NCBI GenBank assembly: GCA_003602535.1
Contig: QQSA01000021.1
Span: 15,924-68,530, forward strand
Reading direction: 5' to 3'
DNA length: 52,607 nt
From: Candidatus Poseidoniales archaeon
GTDB taxonomy: Archaea; Thermoplasmatota; Poseidoniia; Poseidoniales; Poseidoniaceae
Part shown: positions 24,825 to 38,169 of the stretch, piece after piece
Layout of the letters: each line of letters begins with the position of its first letter
Position numbering within the stretch: the stretch's first letter is position 1
The notes under the pieces: model-generated
The model's input: only the letters and a program-made list of their open reading frames with translations
Told to the model about the DNA's origin: nothing
The model's database searches: none
Position numbers and translations under genes: made by a program

Positions 24825-27002
24825 ATGCGTCGCGGTTTTACAATCTTATGTTTGGTTCTTTTTTTGGCGCCATTGACCGGTTCCCTAGGTAATGATGTTG
24901 ATTCAAATTCGGAATGGTCATCAGAAATTCCTGAAATGACTCCAATCGTTTACGAAGAGGTAAATTGGTGGGAAAGAACAACCATGGATTCCAATAGAAA
25001 TGGGATTTTCGACTCACTTGAAACTTTGAATGAACCAGTTGGTATAGGCCTATCCTATGGCAGAGATGTTACTGATTCAGATGTAGAATTGCTAGAGTCA
25101 ATGGGTTACGAAATTACAGATGTTATTGAGGCAGTGGATGCAGTTCTATTAGGAGTAATCAATTCAGAAGACATTTGGGAATTATCTCAAATTGATGGAG
25201 TTGTCATGGTTGAAAGATATGGGCAAGTTATTTTGTGGGGAGATGTTCAAACTCCAAACATAAAGGCTGAACCATCAGATGTTTATCCACAAGCTGCATG
25301 GGATTATTCGCCAATGGGCGGCCTTGGAATAAACATTGCAATGGTGGATACAGGAACTGATAATGAACATCCTGGATTGAAAGATAAATTCGTGGCAGGG
25401 TATGATGCAGTTTGCTTTGTTCACACAGACCCTGAATGTGTTCTTGCCGGCGGTAGAGAAACTGATGGATCATTTGACCCAGACGATGGTAACCAACATG
25501 GAACTGCTTGTATGGGTATGGCAGCTGCTACCGGCTTAGATGCTAATGGAGAGCAAACTGGCTTCGAAGGTTCTGCACCCAATGCTAGCTTAATCGATGT
25601 GAGGATTGGTACAGATGCTGGAGCAGGTCCATTCGAAAACTATCTTCTTTCACAAGAATTCTATGAATCTGCAATGAATGGTCTTCAATGGATAATAGAC
25701 AACAAGGACACTCCATGGCCTGGTGTTGATGAGAGCCTGTATGGCATAGATATCATTTCACTTTCTTGGGGTATTACCAGCCACGAAGGCGGAGGTAGTG
25801 ATGGAGAAGACATGCACTCACGTATCCTTAACGAAGCAACTCTTGCAGGAATTGCTGTAAGTGTAGCCGCTGGAAACGATGGTTCAGGAAATGATGGTCT
25901 ATCTGGTATGGGTTCTTCTTCTCTATCGATAACGGTTGGAGCTACTGATGACATGAATACAATCGAAAGAGATGACGATACAATCGCAGGTTATTCTAGT
26001 CGTGGCCCTCGTAGAGACAATGGCGATTCTAATCCTATCAATGAGATGAAGCCAGATGTAACTGCATCAGGTTCAGACATTGTGCAAGCAGAAGCTTGTG
26101 TAACTTCAGGTTCTTGTAACAACTTCTTAGGAGGCGATGCTTCACAAAACGGCTACACGGGACGTGGCTCAGGTACTTCTTACGCAACTCCTGCCGTTAC
26201 AGGAGTAATCGCTCTAATGATGGAGGTAAACGATGAAATCAATCCATTGGTGATTAGAGAAATTCTACGTTCAACTGCAGAAAGAAAAGAAACTCTGTCC
26301 GAAGAAGTAGATGGTGAGGGTGTTGAAGATGGCCCATGGGCTACTTATCCAGACATAGATCCTCATTGGAATCGTCATTTTGGTTGGGGCATGGTAGATG
26401 CTCATGATGCAGTATTGACGGCTAAGTATCTCAATGATGTAGGAATAACAACTTCTGATATGAATTTAGACTTGCAAGTGCACATCGAGGATATTTCAAC
26501 TGATGGTACTGTAAATACCTACACAGGTCTAGCATGGAGCCGTGGAGCAGTAATGGATAAAATCGAATATTCTGTAGATGGTGGAGATACATGGACTGAG
26601 GTAATGTATGAAGATGCAAATGGTTCACTTAGTGCCTACGAATCATTTGCATTCCAGTTTGTTGTAGATACAGATTACCTTCCAGAAGGTGACAATATGA
26701 TTATTGTTAGAGGAGTTGACGAAAATGGGGCTTCATCAATGATATCATGGGACTCAGTAACCGGTGGAGGAAATGTCGAATCTTACGGTAGTGGGGATTC
26801 AATTGGCAGATTGCTGTTTATTGGAGTAGTTGGACTTGCAATCCTAATTTTTGGGGCATTTGTAGCAATTCAACAACAAGTGGATGAACCAGTATTATTC
26901 GTTGCTTCAGGCGATGAAATGTCAAAAACGCCTCCAATAATTGATCATGAACCATTGGAAGCGACATTAGTCGATGATGTATCAGATAGCACCTCATCTT
27001 GA
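24825..27002 (+). CDS. secreted subtilisin-like (S8) serine protease with C-terminal TM
   Basis: GINIAMVDTGTDNEHPGL, GNQHGTACMGMAAATG, VSVAAGNDGSG, GTSYATPAVTGVIALMM; C-terminal TM helix. Confidence 0.88.
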   Translation: MRRGFTILCLVLFLAPLTGSLGNDVDSNSEWSSEIPEMTPIVYEEVNWWERTTMDSNRNGIFDSLETLNEPVGIGLSYGRDVTDSDVELLESMGYEITDVIEAVDAVLLGVINSEDIWELSQIDGVVMVERYGQVILWGDVQTPNIKAEPSDVYPQAAWDYSPMGGLGINIAMVDTGTDNEHPGLKDKFVAGYDAVCFVHTDPECVLAGGRETDGSFDPDDGNQHGTACMGMAAATGLDANGEQTGFEGSAPNASLIDVRIGTDAGAGPFENYLLSQEFYESAMNGLQWIIDNKDTPWPGVDESLYGIDIISLSWGITSHEGGGSDGEDMHSRILNEATLAGIAVSVAAGNDGSGNDGLSGMGSSSLSITVGATDDMNTIERDDDTIAGYSSRGPRRDNGDSNPINEMKPDVTASGSDIVQAEACVTSGSCNNFLGGDASQNGYTGRGSGTSYATPAVTGVIALMMEVNDEINPLVIREILRSTAERKETLSEEVDGEGVEDGPWATYPDIDPHWNRHFGWGMVDAHDAVLTAKYLNDVGITTSDMNLDLQVHIEDISTDGTVNTYTGLAWSRGAVMDKIEYSVDGGDTWTEVMYEDANGSLSAYESFAFQFVVDTDYLPEGDNMIIVRGVDENGASSMISWDSVTGGGNVESYGSGDSIGRLLFIGVVGLAILIFGAFVAIQQQVDEPVLFVASGDEMSKTPPIIDHEPLEATLVDDVSDSTSS

Positions 27003-28756: not shown

Positions 28757-30148
28757 TCAATCAAACATTGAACCGAATCCTTCGAATTCAGAAGGCTCAT
28801 CTTCTTCAGGCTGAGATGTATCTTCTTCCGGTTGTACATCTGGTAATGAATCGGTATTGTCAACGAATGAGAAAGCATCTTCAGTAGTTGATACAGCATC
28901 CATTCCACTATCGAATGCTTGTGGCGCAGAATTTGCTGCAGCAATTGCGGTATTGCCTGCACTTTGTGCTTTGGAAGCAATTCCTGAGGCTGCTGTTGCC
29001 GCGATTCCAATACCAATTCCAACCGTTGCTCCGGCAACAGCTCCAACAACTCTTCCTGCAGATATCAGTGCGCCACCGTCTCCTTCTTCTTCAGGAGTTT
29101 TAATTTCAACTTCATCTCCCAATCTCATCCATTCTGGAGGAGTTCCCGATCCTCCTCCCAAACAAGCTAATGTTGTGAATGCTGCTAATGGCATTACAGC
29201 CAGTGCAGTTAACAGATCCAAGAAAGATGTTTCAGGAACACTACCAATTCTTAGTAAATCTTCCATGAATGTCTGTTCTAGATCTAAATTGGTAGACAAA
29301 TCTGCTCCTATCCATGATAATACGATTACACTTGCTAACCTACCCATCAGCCATAATACAAGTACAGGTGCTAGCCAAGATAGTTTAGTCATTGAAATCA
29401 ACCATCGTCTAGTGAATGCTGCAGTTGTTATGTGCTTGCGAGCAAATTTAGGAAATACTCTCATCACCATAATTAGTACAATGAGGTAGCAAGCCATTGC
29501 GACCTCTAATCTACGATTTTGTTTAATCCATTCTTCAGGTATGAAAATAATGAAACCTAGTGGAATGATTACCAGCATTAGCTGGAATGGAATTGCCAGT
29601 AGCACTAATCCTCCATGAGTAGAGAGAAGTGAATGTCTTTTGAGAATTCTATCATTGACCATTACTGTTAATTTAGCATGGGGAGATTTAGCATGATTTC
29701 TTCTTGAATTGCGAAGTGTAGCAGCATCTCTCTTAGCCCTGGTCAGTCCAAATGCTGCTCGCCATCCTCCCTTCTCAACTACCGATAGTGGAGTGAATCC
29801 TCCACATAATAATGCAAGCATTAGAGCTAGCATCCCGTATGCTAAGGATGCAGCAATAATCCACGGTATCATTTCAGATTGAAATGACATTGTGAAATTT
29901 TCTGATGCCATTTCAAAATTAATTAGGTAAGTGATAGAAAATGCAGCCATTGGAGTTAAGAATATTTGACAGAAAACTAGTCCAGTTAACCACAGGCGAG
30001 CAGCCATAGGACCTTTGTTAGAATACTCACCCACACTAGCACCCCAACTCTTTGCTTTCTCAAAGGTTGCCCTCGATTCATACCTGCAAGTACCGATTAA
30101 AACACTTCTTTGAATATGCCAATTAACTTCTGTCCCCTTCGGGGACAT
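28757..30148 (-). CDS. polytopic membrane protein, unknown function
   Basis: Multiple TM segments, Gly/Ala-rich helix (AGRVVGAVAGATVGIGIGIAATAASGIASKA), acidic C-terminus. The track ORF extends to 30337 and overlaps the divergent gene; start at MSPKGTEVNW (30148) or MAARLW is more plausible. Confidence 0.55.
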   Translation of the reverse strand: MSPKGTEVNWHIQRSVLIGTCRYESRATFEKAKSWGASVGEYSNKGPMAARLWLTGLVFCQIFLTPMAAFSITYLINFEMASENFTMSFQSEMIPWIIAASLAYGMLALMLALLCGGFTPLSVVEKGGWRAAFGLTRAKRDAATLRNSRRNHAKSPHAKLTVMVNDRILKRHSLLSTHGGLVLLAIPFQLMLVIIPLGFIIFIPEEWIKQNRRLEVAMACYLIVLIMVMRVFPKFARKHITTAAFTRRWLISMTKLSWLAPVLVLWLMGRLASVIVLSWIGADLSTNLDLEQTFMEDLLRIGSVPETSFLDLLTALAVMPLAAFTTLACLGGGSGTPPEWMRLGDEVEIKTPEEEGDGGALISAGRVVGAVAGATVGIGIGIAATAASGIASKAQSAGNTAIAAANSAPQAFDSGMDAVSTTEDAFSFVDNTDSLPDVQPEEDTSQPEEDEPSEFEGFGSMFD

Positions 30149-30188
30149 GTGAAGGGGACATTCATATGCCAAACTATGTTCGCATGCT

Positions 30189-33100
30189 GTGATGAACATG
30201 CGCAAGACGATACCACTTCTATTGGTGACAATCCTTCTCATGCAATCTCTACTAGTTTTGACTGTGGATGAAGTCGAAGCTACAATGGGCCGCGGTGGCT
30301 CTTCTGATGATTTCTCAGTTTCAGAAATAGAATTCAATTCTTCTGAAGAAAATCATTGGATTCAGCCTGATGGAAGTGTGGTAGTTTACATTGCTAAGGG
30401 CGATATTGTTGATATTTCCGTTGAAGTTCGTCGAGGAGGTGGGGCATTAACAGGTTCTAGTGCTACTGTCTCGGTTGAAATGGTTCATCCAATCGGATAT
30501 GTTATGAATTCAACTTCCTGGGAAACAGTCCCTATGCTCGGAGGTCAATCTTACACCGATTCATTCACTTGGGATGCATATGTTGCTCATTCATATCTGA
30601 ATGTTTCATCTAACGAATTGTCAGGTGGAATAATAATTAGAGCCACAGTTTTCAATTCTGCAGATGATCGAAATGAGAACGATGTGATGGAGAAGTCATT
30701 GCCTGTTGCTATTGCTCAGGATGACATGGATGCTGAAGGCGATCCTCGTGACCAAGCTCTACCAACCGCTTCCAAAGCAACTTTCTATGGTGGAGAATAT
30801 CCAATCGACGGCAGTGATGCTACAGGAATTGGAATCTGGCAGGAAGACGGCACTTCTTCTGCAGTTGGTTCTGCAAATTGGCGTCATTCAAATGCAGGTT
30901 CAGATTACCCTTCTGCATCACGAAGCCGTCTCGTATTCGCATTCAGAGGAGCAGATAGTAACTGTGGTTACGGTGCCTCTTTGGATGGTGGTCTGTCACA
31001 ACAATACATTCAGTGGATGTGTAAGGTTCAACTCAACTCAGCAGGATTAGTTTCTGCGCAAATGCACGCCCAAACATGGGGCCAAATGGGTGCAGGGGAC
31101 ATGGTCGCACTAGAATTATGGAGAGGAAACGGTGCTCCTGAAAATACGATTTACCATAATTTTGCTGAAGATATGCCAAGTACAGCAGCTGGTTCTTGGA
31201 GTAATATTTCTTGGGATCCTACTGACCAACTTGGTGGTCACTCGTGGTCATATGGTATATTATTCCAATCAGATGGTTCAGGTGCTTCAAGTGGAATGCA
31301 TGTAGATGACTTCGTAATGTTTGGTATTGAGAAAGTTAGTGAATATACTTTAGATATCGATTGTGATAACCCTACTGGCGGATACACCACGCCTCCAAAT
31401 ACAATTGTTCCAATGTATTGTACAATTACCAATAATGGATACATGGGTGCTCAGGTAAGATTACAATCAAACATATCGAATACAACTTGGATGAATCCAA
31501 GTCTGCCGATGATTAGAATTGATAGCGACAATCCTAATCAGCACGGAACCAATGTAATTCTGCCAGTAATTCCTGGAGGAAATACTTCGGAAATGTGGAT
31601 TAATCTTTCAATACCTGCGGGAGCAGATGTCCAACAACAAGTTTGGCAAGTTTGGTGGGAAGATGCAGGCGGTACACAATTGGGTGAAATGGGCAGGATT
31701 GCTACTGATATTGCGATAACGGAACAGTATGGTGTTCACCTTTCATCTACCGCTCCTCTTCTTGCAACATCTTTGCTTCCTGGTGAGTCGGCAGATATAC
31801 CGTTTAAATTACAGAATGCAGGTAACAGAGAAGCAGGATTTACAGTTACATCTAATTTCCAAGCAGACAACTGGGTTGCATATGTTACCGATTTAAATCA
31901 CCAAATTGTCCAGATGCCAATGCCTCTTGCTAAGGGCGAACAATTAGAATTGTTACTGAACGTAACAGCTCCTGAAGATTCATCTCCTGGTGAGATTCCT
32001 TTCTCGTTGAGAGCAGTATGTCCTTCTTGTGGACAATCATTATTTGGAAATGATGTGATTTCTAAGAAGATAGATGTTCCAGTTCTCAGAGAACTTTCAA
32101 TGGCTGCTGAGGAATTGTATGTTGAAGCACCTGCTAACGGGAACACTAGAATTGTGTATGTAGATTTATTGAATCTTGGAAATGATGATGAAGCCTATTC
32201 TCTCGATTTAGTAGAGTCGAATTGGCGCCTACAAGCTTCTCTTTCAGCTGATGAAACCCCGGTCTTAGATGCATGGGATGGCGAAACTAGTATTGCTTTG
32301 AATCTACCAATGCCAATCGGACTTGCTCCTGGCTTATACACTGCTAGAATTACAGCCTCTAGTATCGATGATCCATCGGTCCAAGAGCAAATTACAATCA
32401 ATGTCGAGGTGACAAATACTTCATCTGCAGGAGTTTCAGATGAAGTTGCAGATCAATCATATATTCCAGGTGGAGATCCACAATCTATGAGATTTGAAAT
32501 TACTAACAATGGAAATAAGGCTGATAGATTCGTTATGAGTATGGATGCTCCAGAGGGAATGAATGCACAATTCGAACAACTGATTGGAGAAAATTTGACC
32601 CCTCTACTCAATCCAGGAGAATCTTACAATGTTACAGTTACCTTCACATTTGATGATGATGTCAACGGCCAACTAGTTCTAAAGGTAATTGCAACAAGTG
32701 TAAATGACAATGATGTCACATCGGATGGTACATGCACTTATCTGGTCGGTTCACAGAACTGGCTGCGAATTATCTCAACAGAATCAATCATGATTTCCGA
32801 ATCTGGTAAAGTTGAAGTTGTTGTGAGAGTCAGGAATCAATATGATGCAGGTCAATCTGTAACTATGTCAATTGATCAACAAGGTAACAATAAATGGTAC
32901 AGTGCGTCAATAAAGAATACAGATAGGGATTTCTGGTTGGAAGTGGAAGGTGAAAGAGAAGTTACAATCATTTTGGATGTTCCATCTTCTGTTCTAGAAA
33001 CTCTTGATGAAGATTATGTTGATACTTATGTGAAAGTATGGGCCAAATCAAATTCTGTAGAAGAGTCAGCTTCTCTAGATTTACCAATCACACTGAAGAG

Positions 33101-35328: not shown

Positions 35329-37299
35329 ATGCCAACCATTGCTAAGGTCTGGATCGAGGAAGATTGCATCACATGTGATGCATGTCAGGATATTTTGCCG
35401 GAAGTGTTCGAGGTAACAGACGACACAAGTCAGATCAAAGCAGATGTTCGAGAGGACGGGGCATTCGACCGCAATACTGGACTTTCTGCGATTAAAAATG
35501 AGTTCCGTTCAGAGTTCTCCGATTTGATTGAAGAAGCAGCTGATGCTTGTCCTGTTGAGATTATTAAATTTGAATATGAAGGTGGAGTTGCTGAAGAAGT
35601 TGCTGAAGAAGTTGCACCTGCTGCGTCTGAAGCAGTAGTTGCCCCGGTTGCAGTAGCAGATGCTGGTGCAGATGCAGGGGTTCTAGCAGGTGTACTTTCA
35701 GGAGATCGCAGCCTAGCAATCTTCTTTGGTTCACAAACAGGAAATGCAGCAGGCTTAGCGGAAAAAACAGCTAAGCGTGCAGTCGCTTACGGTCTTGAAC
35801 CAACCGTCATAGATATGGATGGATACGACCAAGCACAATTCTCTTCACACAAGCGTATTTTAATCATCACTTCAACATGGGGTGAAGGTGAGATGCCAGA
35901 TAATGCTGATGAGCTTTGGAATGCAACAGTAGCAGCAAACCCGTCTCTTGCTGGTGTACACTATTCAGTATGTGCTATTGGAGATTCATCGTATGATGAA
36001 TTCTGTAAGGCAGGAGAAGATTGGGATCAAAAGTTCGCATCTTTAGGTGCAACCTCAATCCTAGAGATGAAAATGTGCGATGTAGATTTCGATGAACCTT
36101 GGAATGAGTGGGTAACAGAAGTTCTTCCAAGAATTGCTTGTGTAGATTCTTCAGGAGTATTCCATGAAGATTTAGTTGAAGCGATGATTGCATACGGTGC
36201 TGGTGATGAAGATGATGAAGGCGCTGATGGCGACTTCAATCCACCGACAATCGAACAGGCTCCGATGTCATTGACTATGCGCATATTCAGATATGATCCA
36301 ATTAAAGCCCAATCAGGTTACGACACAATTGCTGTAGCTTTGCCAGGGCATGCTACAATCGAAGATGCATTGGTTGCAATAAAGAGAGAAGCCGATGGCT
36401 CTCTGACATTTAGGAGTGGAAGTATTTCTGGATTGAATCCGTTGACTGGAGTGAAGGCTAATGGAAGAATACTGCCTGCAGATACTACTAGAATCAGTGA
36501 TTTAGTAAGTGATGGAGGGACATTAACCGTCGAACCATTACCTGGTTACGAAGTTCTGAAAGATTTGATGGTTTCTTACGACCGATATGATGACTCTCGT
36601 GCTAATTCAAAACCTTGGTTAGAAGCAGATCCTCGTCAAGGGGAGAGACTTGCAAGTGGTGCTCCGATGGGAGTTATGGAATCTGCTCAAGCAACCAGAT
36701 TACACGCTTTAGCAGATGTTGGCTCGCTGCAATTAGTCAATGCAATGTCAGATACATTTGATGTTGATGACGTATACTCTGGACCGGGCATCGCTCTTCA
36801 AAGATGGGTTAGAAGTCAAGATCCACGTTCTGGAAATTCTCATGTCAAGAAGATGTTTGAACTGATGCAAAGAAAGGGCGGCGTATGGGACGAAGCAGAT
36901 ATTTCATCAATTCAAAGACATGGCATTGATGGATCACAAGCTGCAGATTCGCTTTACGCTGCAAGGTCTCGATTACTAGCAGAATACAAATTCACTGGTA
37001 AGAGCGGTAGATTGGTTAAGGTGTACTCACGTTCGGTAAAAATGTCAGGTAACGTCAATGAAACTACACTTTATCGTTCAGTATTGGGGCCATTAGGACT
37101 CGGTTCTAATATTATGAACGGGGTATCATTACGAATGATGCTAGGATTCACCAGAAATGGAGGTCCAATGATGAGAGGATTCCAAGGAATGCTTGTACCT
37201 CCTGCTGGCATTGGAAAGATTCCTGATATGTTCAATAGTAAGGTTGTTAATCATCACGAAGTAGTTGCAATTTTCAATGAATTAGATAGGAGATTCTGA
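35329..37299 (+). CDS. fusion: [4Fe-4S] ferredoxin + flavodoxin + SdhB/FrdB-like domain lacking all Fe-S cysteines
   Basis: Ferredoxin DCITCDACQDILPEVFEV...ADACPVEIIKF; flavodoxin LAIFFGSQTGNAAGLAEKTAKR, TSTWGEGEMPDNADELW, VCAIGDSSYDEFCKAG; SdhB-like from ~36265: TMRIFRYDP...IEDALVAIKREADGSLTFRSGSISGLNPLTGVKANGRILPADT...TLTVEPLPGYEVLKDLMVSYD...GVWDEADISSIQRHGIDG. Confidence 0.8.
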   Translation: MPTIAKVWIEEDCITCDACQDILPEVFEVTDDTSQIKADVREDGAFDRNTGLSAIKNEFRSEFSDLIEEAADACPVEIIKFEYEGGVAEEVAEEVAPAASEAVVAPVAVADAGADAGVLAGVLSGDRSLAIFFGSQTGNAAGLAEKTAKRAVAYGLEPTVIDMDGYDQAQFSSHKRILIITSTWGEGEMPDNADELWNATVAANPSLAGVHYSVCAIGDSSYDEFCKAGEDWDQKFASLGATSILEMKMCDVDFDEPWNEWVTEVLPRIACVDSSGVFHEDLVEAMIAYGAGDEDDEGADGDFNPPTIEQAPMSLTMRIFRYDPIKAQSGYDTIAVALPGHATIEDALVAIKREADGSLTFRSGSISGLNPLTGVKANGRILPADTTRISDLVSDGGTLTVEPLPGYEVLKDLMVSYDRYDDSRANSKPWLEADPRQGERLASGAPMGVMESAQATRLHALADVGSLQLVNAMSDTFDVDDVYSGPGIALQRWVRSQDPRSGNSHVKKMFELMQRKGGVWDEADISSIQRHGIDGSQAADSLYAARSRLLAEYKFTGKSGRLVKVYSRSVKMSGNVNETTLYRSVLGPLGLGSNIMNGVSLRMMLGFTRNGGPMMRGFQGMLVPPAGIGKIPDMFNSKVVNHHEVVAIFNELDRRF

Positions 37300-37308
37300 G
37301 GTGAAATT

Positions 37309-38169
37309 ATGGTTAAGTATTCTTATTATCCTGGAAATGTAGCCCGTCAATCCTCAAGAGAAGTTGAAGATACAATCCAGCCTCTTTGCCGCAGTTTAGG
37401 CATTGAGTTAATCGAAATGGTGGGATATAATGGAGATGGTGGAAACATCATCAAGCAAGGAAATAGGGATTTACAATTGGCTCTTAATGCTCGTAATCTT
37501 GCAATCGCAATGAAGAACGGACATGACATTATCACCCCTTGTGCTTCAGCCCAAGGTATTCTTCATGATTCGCTCAAAACTTTCCGAGAGAACCCAATAG
37601 CATTAGCAGATGCAAATCGCGTACTTGAGATGACTACAGGAATGACTCTAGATGTTTCAGAAATAACGACCAACCATTTGCTACATGTCCTTGTAGATGA
37701 AATTGGTTTGGATAAAGTGGAAGCAGCAGTTGTCAATCCTCTGGATATGGATATTGCTTGCTATTATGGACCTCATATGCAAATTGAAGGTGCATGTGGT
37801 AATGATGATGCCTGGAATCCAAGTTACATGGAGCAACTGATAACTGCATTAGGTGGACGCCCAGTTGAATACAAGACGAAGACTTCTAGCGTTGGTAATC
37901 CATCACTTCTTTCATTAGGGGATTCTGTGATGAAAATGACAGCTCGAGTTCTAAATGATGCCAAAAAGGCAGGAGCTCAAGTTTTGGTTAGTGCTTGTAC
38001 CCAATCACACTCAAATCTAGATTCATATCAAGGAAAAGCAGGACGTGTTTCTGGTAAGGACACAGATATTCCAGTTGTAAACTTCACTGAAATTATTGCA
38101 TTTGCTTTAGGCCATTTCACCGATCGTTTTGCACAGTTGAAAACACGTGCAATGTTAATTGGTTCCTGA
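37309..38169 (+). CDS. HdrB/SdhE-like (CCG-domain family) protein with degenerate cysteine motifs
   Basis: YSYYPGNVARQS...LGIELIEMVGYNGDGGNI...LNARNLAIAMKNGHDIITPCASAQ...NHLLHVLVDEIG...IACYYGPHMQ...YMEQLITALGGRPVEYKTKTSSVGNPS...VLVSACTQSHSNLD matches the HdrB fold pattern with most Cys replaced. Confidence 0.72.
   Translation: MVKYSYYPGNVARQSSREVEDTIQPLCRSLGIELIEMVGYNGDGGNIIKQGNRDLQLALNARNLAIAMKNGHDIITPCASAQGILHDSLKTFRENPIALADANRVLEMTTGMTLDVSEITTNHLLHVLVDEIGLDKVEAAVVNPLDMDIACYYGPHMQIEGACGNDDAWNPSYMEQLITALGGRPVEYKTKTSSVGNPSLLSLGDSVMKMTARVLNDAKKAGAQVLVSACTQSHSNLDSYQGKAGRVSGKDTDIPVVNFTEIIAFALGHFTDRFAQLKTRAMLIGS

Follow-up and report, generated by a model that had tools for sequence, protein, structure and literature searches.

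A cysteine-free SdhB-fold domain fused to ferredoxin and flavodoxin, and its stripped SdhE/HdrB neighbour, are conserved across the Poseidoniales

The window analysed here is a stretch of 52,607 nucleotides from the 1.76 Mb MAG of a Candidatus Poseidoniales archaeon (contig QQSA01000021.1). It contains an open reading frame of 656 codons, opening with ATG, in which a ferredoxin and a flavodoxin are joined to an SdhB-like part, and a second gene that starts 9 nt downstream and encodes a relative of SdhE and HdrB. We refer to the SdhB-like part of the fusion (residues 311-656, nucleotides 36259-37296) as S* and to the downstream protein as B*. The features, in window coordinates, are as follows.

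35329..37299, + strand: ferredoxin–flavodoxin–S* fusion, 656 aa (ORF call, Pfam and NCBIfam matches)
35356..35568, + strand: single-cluster [4Fe-4S] ferredoxin domain (Fer4_13/Fer4_15; four Cys in 35/35)
35707..36138, + strand: CysJ-type flavodoxin (FMN) domain (Flavodoxin_1, E 6e-29; CysJ; FMN loops)
36259..37296, + strand: S*, SdhB-fold domain with 0/12 cluster cysteines (Fer2_3, SdhB profiles, fold, ligand columns)
37051..37296, + strand: C-terminal tail of S*, its most conserved part, GFTR.GG...PPAGIGK.P...NHHEVV (entropy, model confidence, alignment)
37309..38169, + strand: B*, SdhE/HdrB-like protein of 286 aa with 2/10 CCG cysteines left (NF042965/TIGR03288, HdrB profile, model)
37540..37542, + strand: Cys78 of B*, N-lobe, invariant (128/128)
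37996..37998, + strand: Cys230 of B*, C-lobe, invariant (128/128)

The domain content given in an initial annotation of the DNA, namely a four-cysteine ferredoxin, a CysJ-type flavodoxin and an SdhB-like domain in one frame, was confirmed by both profile collections. Pfam places Fer4_13 at residues 10-80, Flavodoxin_1 at 131-256 and Fer2_3, the SdhB N-terminal domain, at 317-419, and NCBIfam places CysJ at 127-270 and SdhB/FrdB models at 310-521. The linkers of the fusion are rich in Ala/Val/Glu/Pro and in Gly/Asp, the one between ferredoxin and flavodoxin being Ala/Val/Glu-rich. Both carrier domains appear functional: the four ligating cysteines of the ferredoxin are intact in 35/35 homologues, and the FMN-binding loops of the flavodoxin are at least 95% invariant over 78 domains, from which FMN binding is inferred.

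S* contains no cysteine at all, and the claim of the initial annotation that none occurs from about position 36265 to the stop codon thus held. A profile built from 39 homologues matched PDB SdhB chains with an E-value of 3e-15, and SdhB structures were the best matches of the predicted S* structure, with TM scores of 0.83-0.86 on target length. Sequence profiles and structure match therefore show that S* derives from SdhB and has the SdhB sequence and fold, a beta-grasp plus a helical domain. Among 131 distinct S* sequences, none of the 12 columns that hold the cysteine ligands of the [2Fe-2S], [4Fe-4S] and [3Fe-4S] clusters is kept; the sole exception is one cysteine in 1/131 sequences, and 11 of the 12 columns are without any. 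The second former cysteine motif corresponds in the alignment to ADVGSLQLVNAMSD, a little further downstream than the initial annotation had put it. That annotation had named two outcomes that would refute it, absence of any relation to SdhB and homologues that keep the cysteines. Neither was found, since the relation holds by profile and by fold and none of the 131 homologues retains the cysteines. It is conceivable that residues other than cysteine (Asp, Ser, Asn, Glu or His) still hold the clusters, and two of the 12 former ligand columns are indeed fixed, as Ser and Glu. We consider this very unlikely because many of the other columns are variable or hydrophobic (V/I/F, L/Y/P, I/V), besides the absence of any cysteine from 11 of them.

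The fusion is present in 294/319 Poseidoniales (Marine Group II) genomes, in 35/35 high-quality genomes and in 22/22 genera. When the whole phylum was searched with the profile, the scores of full-length members lay at 395-581 bits. Canonical SdhB proteins from outside the order reached 94 bits at best, and hits in the class's other family were marginal at most. Among the GTDB contigs we confirmed 243 relatives and retained 80, all of which are titled Poseidoniales, generic Euryarchaeota or uncultured euryarchaeote, save one titled Rhodobiaceae. That contig (L156, uncultured Rhodobiaceae bacterium) carries a Poseidoniales module and is probably mis-binned. B* adjoins S* in 129 of the 131 distinct sequences, the remaining two being cut by contig ends. 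In 9/9 distant loci the thermosome gene is followed by S*, B* and an ERCC4-type helicase, in that order, and L3 and L4 come next in the 8 loci that extend far enough.

A pseudogene or a sequencing or assembly artefact has to be considered, because hallmark residues are missing from three related subunits, S*, B* and the SdhA-like protein described below. We regard this explanation as all but excluded and reject it. The S* frames are open and collinear in 131 distinct sequences from two families, the carrier domains are intact, and median dN/dS is 0.031 for S* and 0.026 for B*, compared with 0.013 for the neighbouring thermosome. The absence of the same 12 cysteines from 131 distinct homologues rules out chance or error, and a dN/dS of about 0.03 together with order-wide presence excludes decay. 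The view of the initial annotation that S* was repurposed therefore stands; the role of scaffold, adaptor or regulator that it offered is not shown.

The conservation pattern of S* gives some indication of what the domain may do. The C-terminal tail, which carries an insertion relative to canonical SdhB, is far more conserved from S* residue 265 onwards than the rest (entropy 0.81 vs 1.61 bits, p 9e-11), and model confidence is below 50 over most of it, the last ~80 residues being low. The former cluster loops, in contrast, show no extra conservation over the remainder of S* (1.56 vs 1.39 bits). This suggests that S* could be a scaffold whose tail binds something, a possibility inferred from conservation without binding data.

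B* matches both the SdhE of the SdhABE type and HdrB (NF042965/TIGR03288), with an E-value of 3e-53 against HdrB of known structure in a profile search. Its model (pLDDT 92) has the two-lobed HdrB fold, with a TM score of ~0.9 to HdrB, and descent from SdhE/HdrB is thereby shown by homology and fold. Using 11 canonical SdhE sequences as reference, we found that 8/10 CCG cluster ligands are gone from this B* and that 7 or 8 are lost in 123/128 B* sequences, one N-lobe column still being cysteine in some. In these 123 the two CCG motifs for non-cubane [4Fe-4S] clusters are consequently incomplete, with two of ten ligands, or three in some. The other five B* sequences retain all five N-lobe ligands and lack four of five in the C-lobe. 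They come from loci L041, L043, L046, L048 and L051 (genomes G164, G132, G131, G276 and G170), in genera g8, g10, g11 and g20, with both families represented. Cluster loss thus appears to have been stepwise, with apparent surviving intermediates, and the occurrence of intact N-lobes in both families makes it likely that the N-lobe cluster is ancestral and was lost at least twice, an inference from GTDB group labels and the S* tree. In one further locus (L061, genome G197) the B* frame is 393 aa long with extra sequence between the lobes, which is either an insertion or an assembly problem.

The loops that once surrounded the clusters of B* are more conserved than its remainder (0.81 vs 1.28 bits, p 8e-4). 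Together with the two invariant cysteines, this suggests a site and not mere bulk, and B* may keep working with a remodelled pocket, as inferred from conservation. One alternative is that B* is itself an enzyme that works through its cysteines, either a thiol/disulfide reductase or a two-cysteine acid–base catalyst of the Asp/Glu racemase kind, with the carriers feeding or controlling it. In its favour, Cys78 and Cys230 lie one per lobe and are invariant, and weak matches to PF01177 (Asp/Glu racemase; best E 8e-6) occur in 19/38 B* members and in none of the four canonical SdhE proteins scanned. Against it, the PF01177 match in the three B* proteins where it was located falls short of the curated cut-off and spans no more than a portion of the C-lobe (residues ~194-279 in several loci), Foldseek returned HdrB as best matches and racemases at TM ~0.3, and a non-redox isomerase would have no need of attached redox carriers. 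The racemase-like reading, resting on weak and partial Pfam matches alone, was rejected, and the cysteine-enzyme alternative as a whole is unlikely.

The carriers at the N-terminus of S* are not fixed. In many relatives a second flavodoxin takes the place of the ferredoxin domain, so that ~78/131 sequences have the form ferredoxin–flavodoxin–S* and 39/131 the form flavodoxin–flavodoxin–S*; flavodoxin–S* and ferredoxin–S* forms are few, and contig ends truncate some. On the S*+B* tree the carrier architecture changes 26 times, and at least 20 changes between the two main architectures are forced by well-supported branches. Since the carriers are kept functional and have been swapped at least 20 times, ferredoxin and flavodoxin appear equivalent in the N-terminal slot. 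Such equivalence is a classical sign of iron sparing. The N-terminal flavodoxins form mostly one group and require 6 changes, compared with 22-24 for the C-terminal flavodoxins, which suggests exchange of the 5' module; it may have passed between lineages by recombination, although this is an inference. The flavodoxin–flavodoxin form was found in 10/18 open-ocean versus 1/22 marginal-sea genomes (Fisher p 7e-4). Isolate names served to assign the regions post hoc, and phylogenetically independent pairs for ocean region and this form numbered 3:0, which is not significant and too small to count. We therefore did not accept the iron/ocean-region association as support.

No SdhA gene lies next to S*. 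An orphan SdhA-like flavoprotein, here called A* (G000:C118:6475-7863; L198:1480-3117), is unlinked to S*–B* and flanked by a conserved 457-aa protein without Pfam match and a HIT protein. It occurs in 278/319 genomes, 34/35 high-quality genomes and 22/22 genera of the order, and order-wide presence of A* is thus shown. In one genome (L221, G008) its homologue contains one in-frame TAA; in the rest of that genus the frame is open. A* scores 154-176 bits against SdhAs of other Thermoplasmatota and 90 bits against the SdhA of its own genome. It has the FAD-binding_2 fold, and in 61 A* sequences the FAD-binding residues are retained, the catalytic Arg is deleted in all, and most or all lack the covalent-FAD His, both substrate His, the Glu and the second Arg. 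The order thus retains a homologue of every SdhABE subunit, A*, S* and B*, each stripped of its hallmark residues. Rate covariation, used to find a partner, was not discriminating (A*–S* 0.36, A*–B* 0.37, A*–flavodoxin 0.50, A*–thermosome 0.33).

The initial annotation had also proposed looking in related genomes for the same fusion and for a separate canonical SdhB. Besides the wide occurrence of the fusion, the genome does encode a canonical SdhA–SdhB pair on a separate contig (C110), and displacement of canonical SdhB by S* is thereby rejected. A flavoprotein on contig C125, considered as partner of S*–B*, reads as NadB and was discarded. The genome has one 2-oxoacid:ferredoxin oxidoreductase (OFOR). 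When the whole genome was searched with the fusion, no other flavodoxin or ferredoxin of the fused types turned up, and the fused ferredoxin was the sole Fer4_13 match in the genome, a result that covers this ferredoxin class only. The adjacent stripped SdhE/HdrB, the orphan stripped SdhA and the swapping of ferredoxin and flavodoxin had all been missed by the initial annotation.

As to origin, B* is sister, with 98% support, to SdhE of intact SdhA–SdhB–SdhE operons in another Thermoplasmatota family. The S* and A* trees have long stems and leave their origins unresolved. A* branches outside those SdhAs that were sampled from other Thermoplasmatota, and a sister relation to SdhA of the family whose SdhE is the sister of B* was rejected by an AU test (p 0.0096), with long branches that make the test error-prone. 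The homology of A* to SdhA is shown.

The closest known system is the SdhABE-type succinate dehydrogenase/8-methylmenaquinol:fumarate reductase (Wolinella, PMC2680327), with which the module shares homology of S*, B* and A* to SdhB, SdhE and SdhA as well as the SdhB–SdhE gene order. It differs in that S* lacks the 12 SdhB ligands and B* lacks 8 (or 4) of the 10 SdhE ligands, A* is unlinked and without a dicarboxylate site, and ferredoxin or flavodoxin is fused to S*. B* resembles HdrB of heterodisulfide reductases (5odc, 8rvv) in fold and over the full length of the sequence, but its non-cubane ligands are largely gone and the organism is no methanogen. TfrB of thiol:fumarate reductase has the domain content of an SdhB–HdrB fusion. 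It shows the same fold pair as S*+B*, with a weak match to NF004898, whereas S* and B* are two genes, have no clusters and carry additional carrier domains. The fused FMN domain is of the same type as in CysJ and cytochrome P450 reductase; here, unlike there, no FAD/NADPH domain is present and S* is attached to the flavodoxin instead. In Foldseek, one chain of PDB 3kwl (Helicobacter pylori, function unknown) was hit by the models of B* (TM 0.72) and of S* (TM 0.47) alike, and 3kwl might be an SdhB–HdrB-like fusion. The resemblance is one of fold alone: no sequence match was found, and the only paper located names 3kwl in a list, so we do not accept it as a precedent. Because S*, B* and A* do not satisfy the cofactor or active-site criteria that define SdhB, SdhE/HdrB and SdhA, we would not class them as functional members of these families. 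The fusion architecture of the S*–B* module has no description in the literature we searched. Published work on Marine Group II reports complexes I and II of canonical type, with RnfB as the only Rnf component (PMC6336850), and the module is unmentioned in the Marine Group II literature examined, including that study.

In canonical systems SdhB takes electrons from SdhA via three clusters, and SdhE/HdrB holds two non-cubane clusters. With the three clusters of S* gone, transfer along a fixed wire through S* is not possible, nor is it through B* in most lineages, and the tethered carriers are the only redox centres remaining in the fusion. We propose that the module descends from an SdhABE-type enzyme in which the internal Fe–S wire was replaced by tethered ferredoxin or flavodoxin on a conserved scaffold, with a remodelled pocket in B*; we hold this slightly less likely to be right than wrong. 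S* and B* would be the stripped SdhB and SdhE of a complex II-like oxidoreductase, probably still pairing, and this complex is itself inferred. The Fe–S chain would have been removed by loss of three clusters from S* and of at least one, usually both, from B*. One or two carriers (a ferredoxin with a flavodoxin, a pair of flavodoxins, or a single carrier) sit on the N-terminus of S* via flexible linkers, whose composition would suit a swinging-domain mechanism. The donor, the direction of electron flow, the final acceptor and the reaction are likewise inferred. The carriers would take up low-potential electrons, likely from 2-oxoacid:ferredoxin oxidoreductase, collection at this enzyme being proposed since the genome has a single OFOR and no second carrier of the fused types. 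They would then swing to an acceptor on the S*–B* scaffold. The likeliest acceptor is the FAD of A*, which would dock like SdhA on SdhB, although both its partnership and its role are inferences. The B* pocket with its two invariant cysteines would form a further substrate or thiol site.

Several observations speak against this proposal. A* is unlinked from S*–B* and covariation did not single it out, the AU test rejects the A* sisterhood (with the long branches noted) and the placement of S* is unresolved, and support comes from MAGs and SAGs only, without biochemistry. The main competitor is a non-redox scaffold or regulator, in which S*–B* would hold the carriers near another enzyme, for example 2-oxoacid:ferredoxin oxidoreductase or complex I, and the FAD chemistry of A* would be unrelated. 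This remains possible. It fits the lack of extra conservation in the former loops of S*, the extreme conservation of a tail whose structure is predicted poorly in isolation, as would be the case for a binding segment, and an A* that is unlinked and shows no specific rate covariation. It fits less well with the B* pocket loops, conserved beyond the rest and with two invariant cysteines, and with the same phyletic range and stripping pattern in A*.

A bolder form of the tethered-carrier reading, towards which we are more sceptical than favourable, is that the whole SdhA+SdhB+SdhE complex was kept through all of Poseidoniales history after losing its substrate site and Fe–S wire, and is now run by tethered ferredoxin and flavodoxin swapped with iron supply. 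If so, a mobile, exchangeable carrier would stand in for a fixed electron wire.

Poseidoniales are among the most abundant surface-ocean archaea, aerobes whose ferredoxin electron handling is unclear, and to our knowledge no member has been cultured. The S*–B* module is readily mistaken for ordinary SdhB/HdrB fragments, and it could be an unrecognised iron-saving redox machine. A near-universal, strongly conserved module that holds the sole ferredoxin and flavodoxin of their types in this genome, mounted on a complex II scaffold with little iron left, would be central to Poseidoniales energy metabolism. The module also shows that Fe–S electron wires are removable with the scaffold retained and intermediates still extant. 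The repeated ferredoxin/flavodoxin swaps in one slot make archaeal iron economy directly testable in existing metagenomes.

Two other genes of the window deserve mention. At 28757-30337 on the - strand, a 526-aa protein without Pfam match is syntenic across the order, and its start overlaps a divergent 1117-aa ORF at 30189. The same conserved neighbourhood includes a subtilisin-like protease (mycosin-type match) at 24825-27002.
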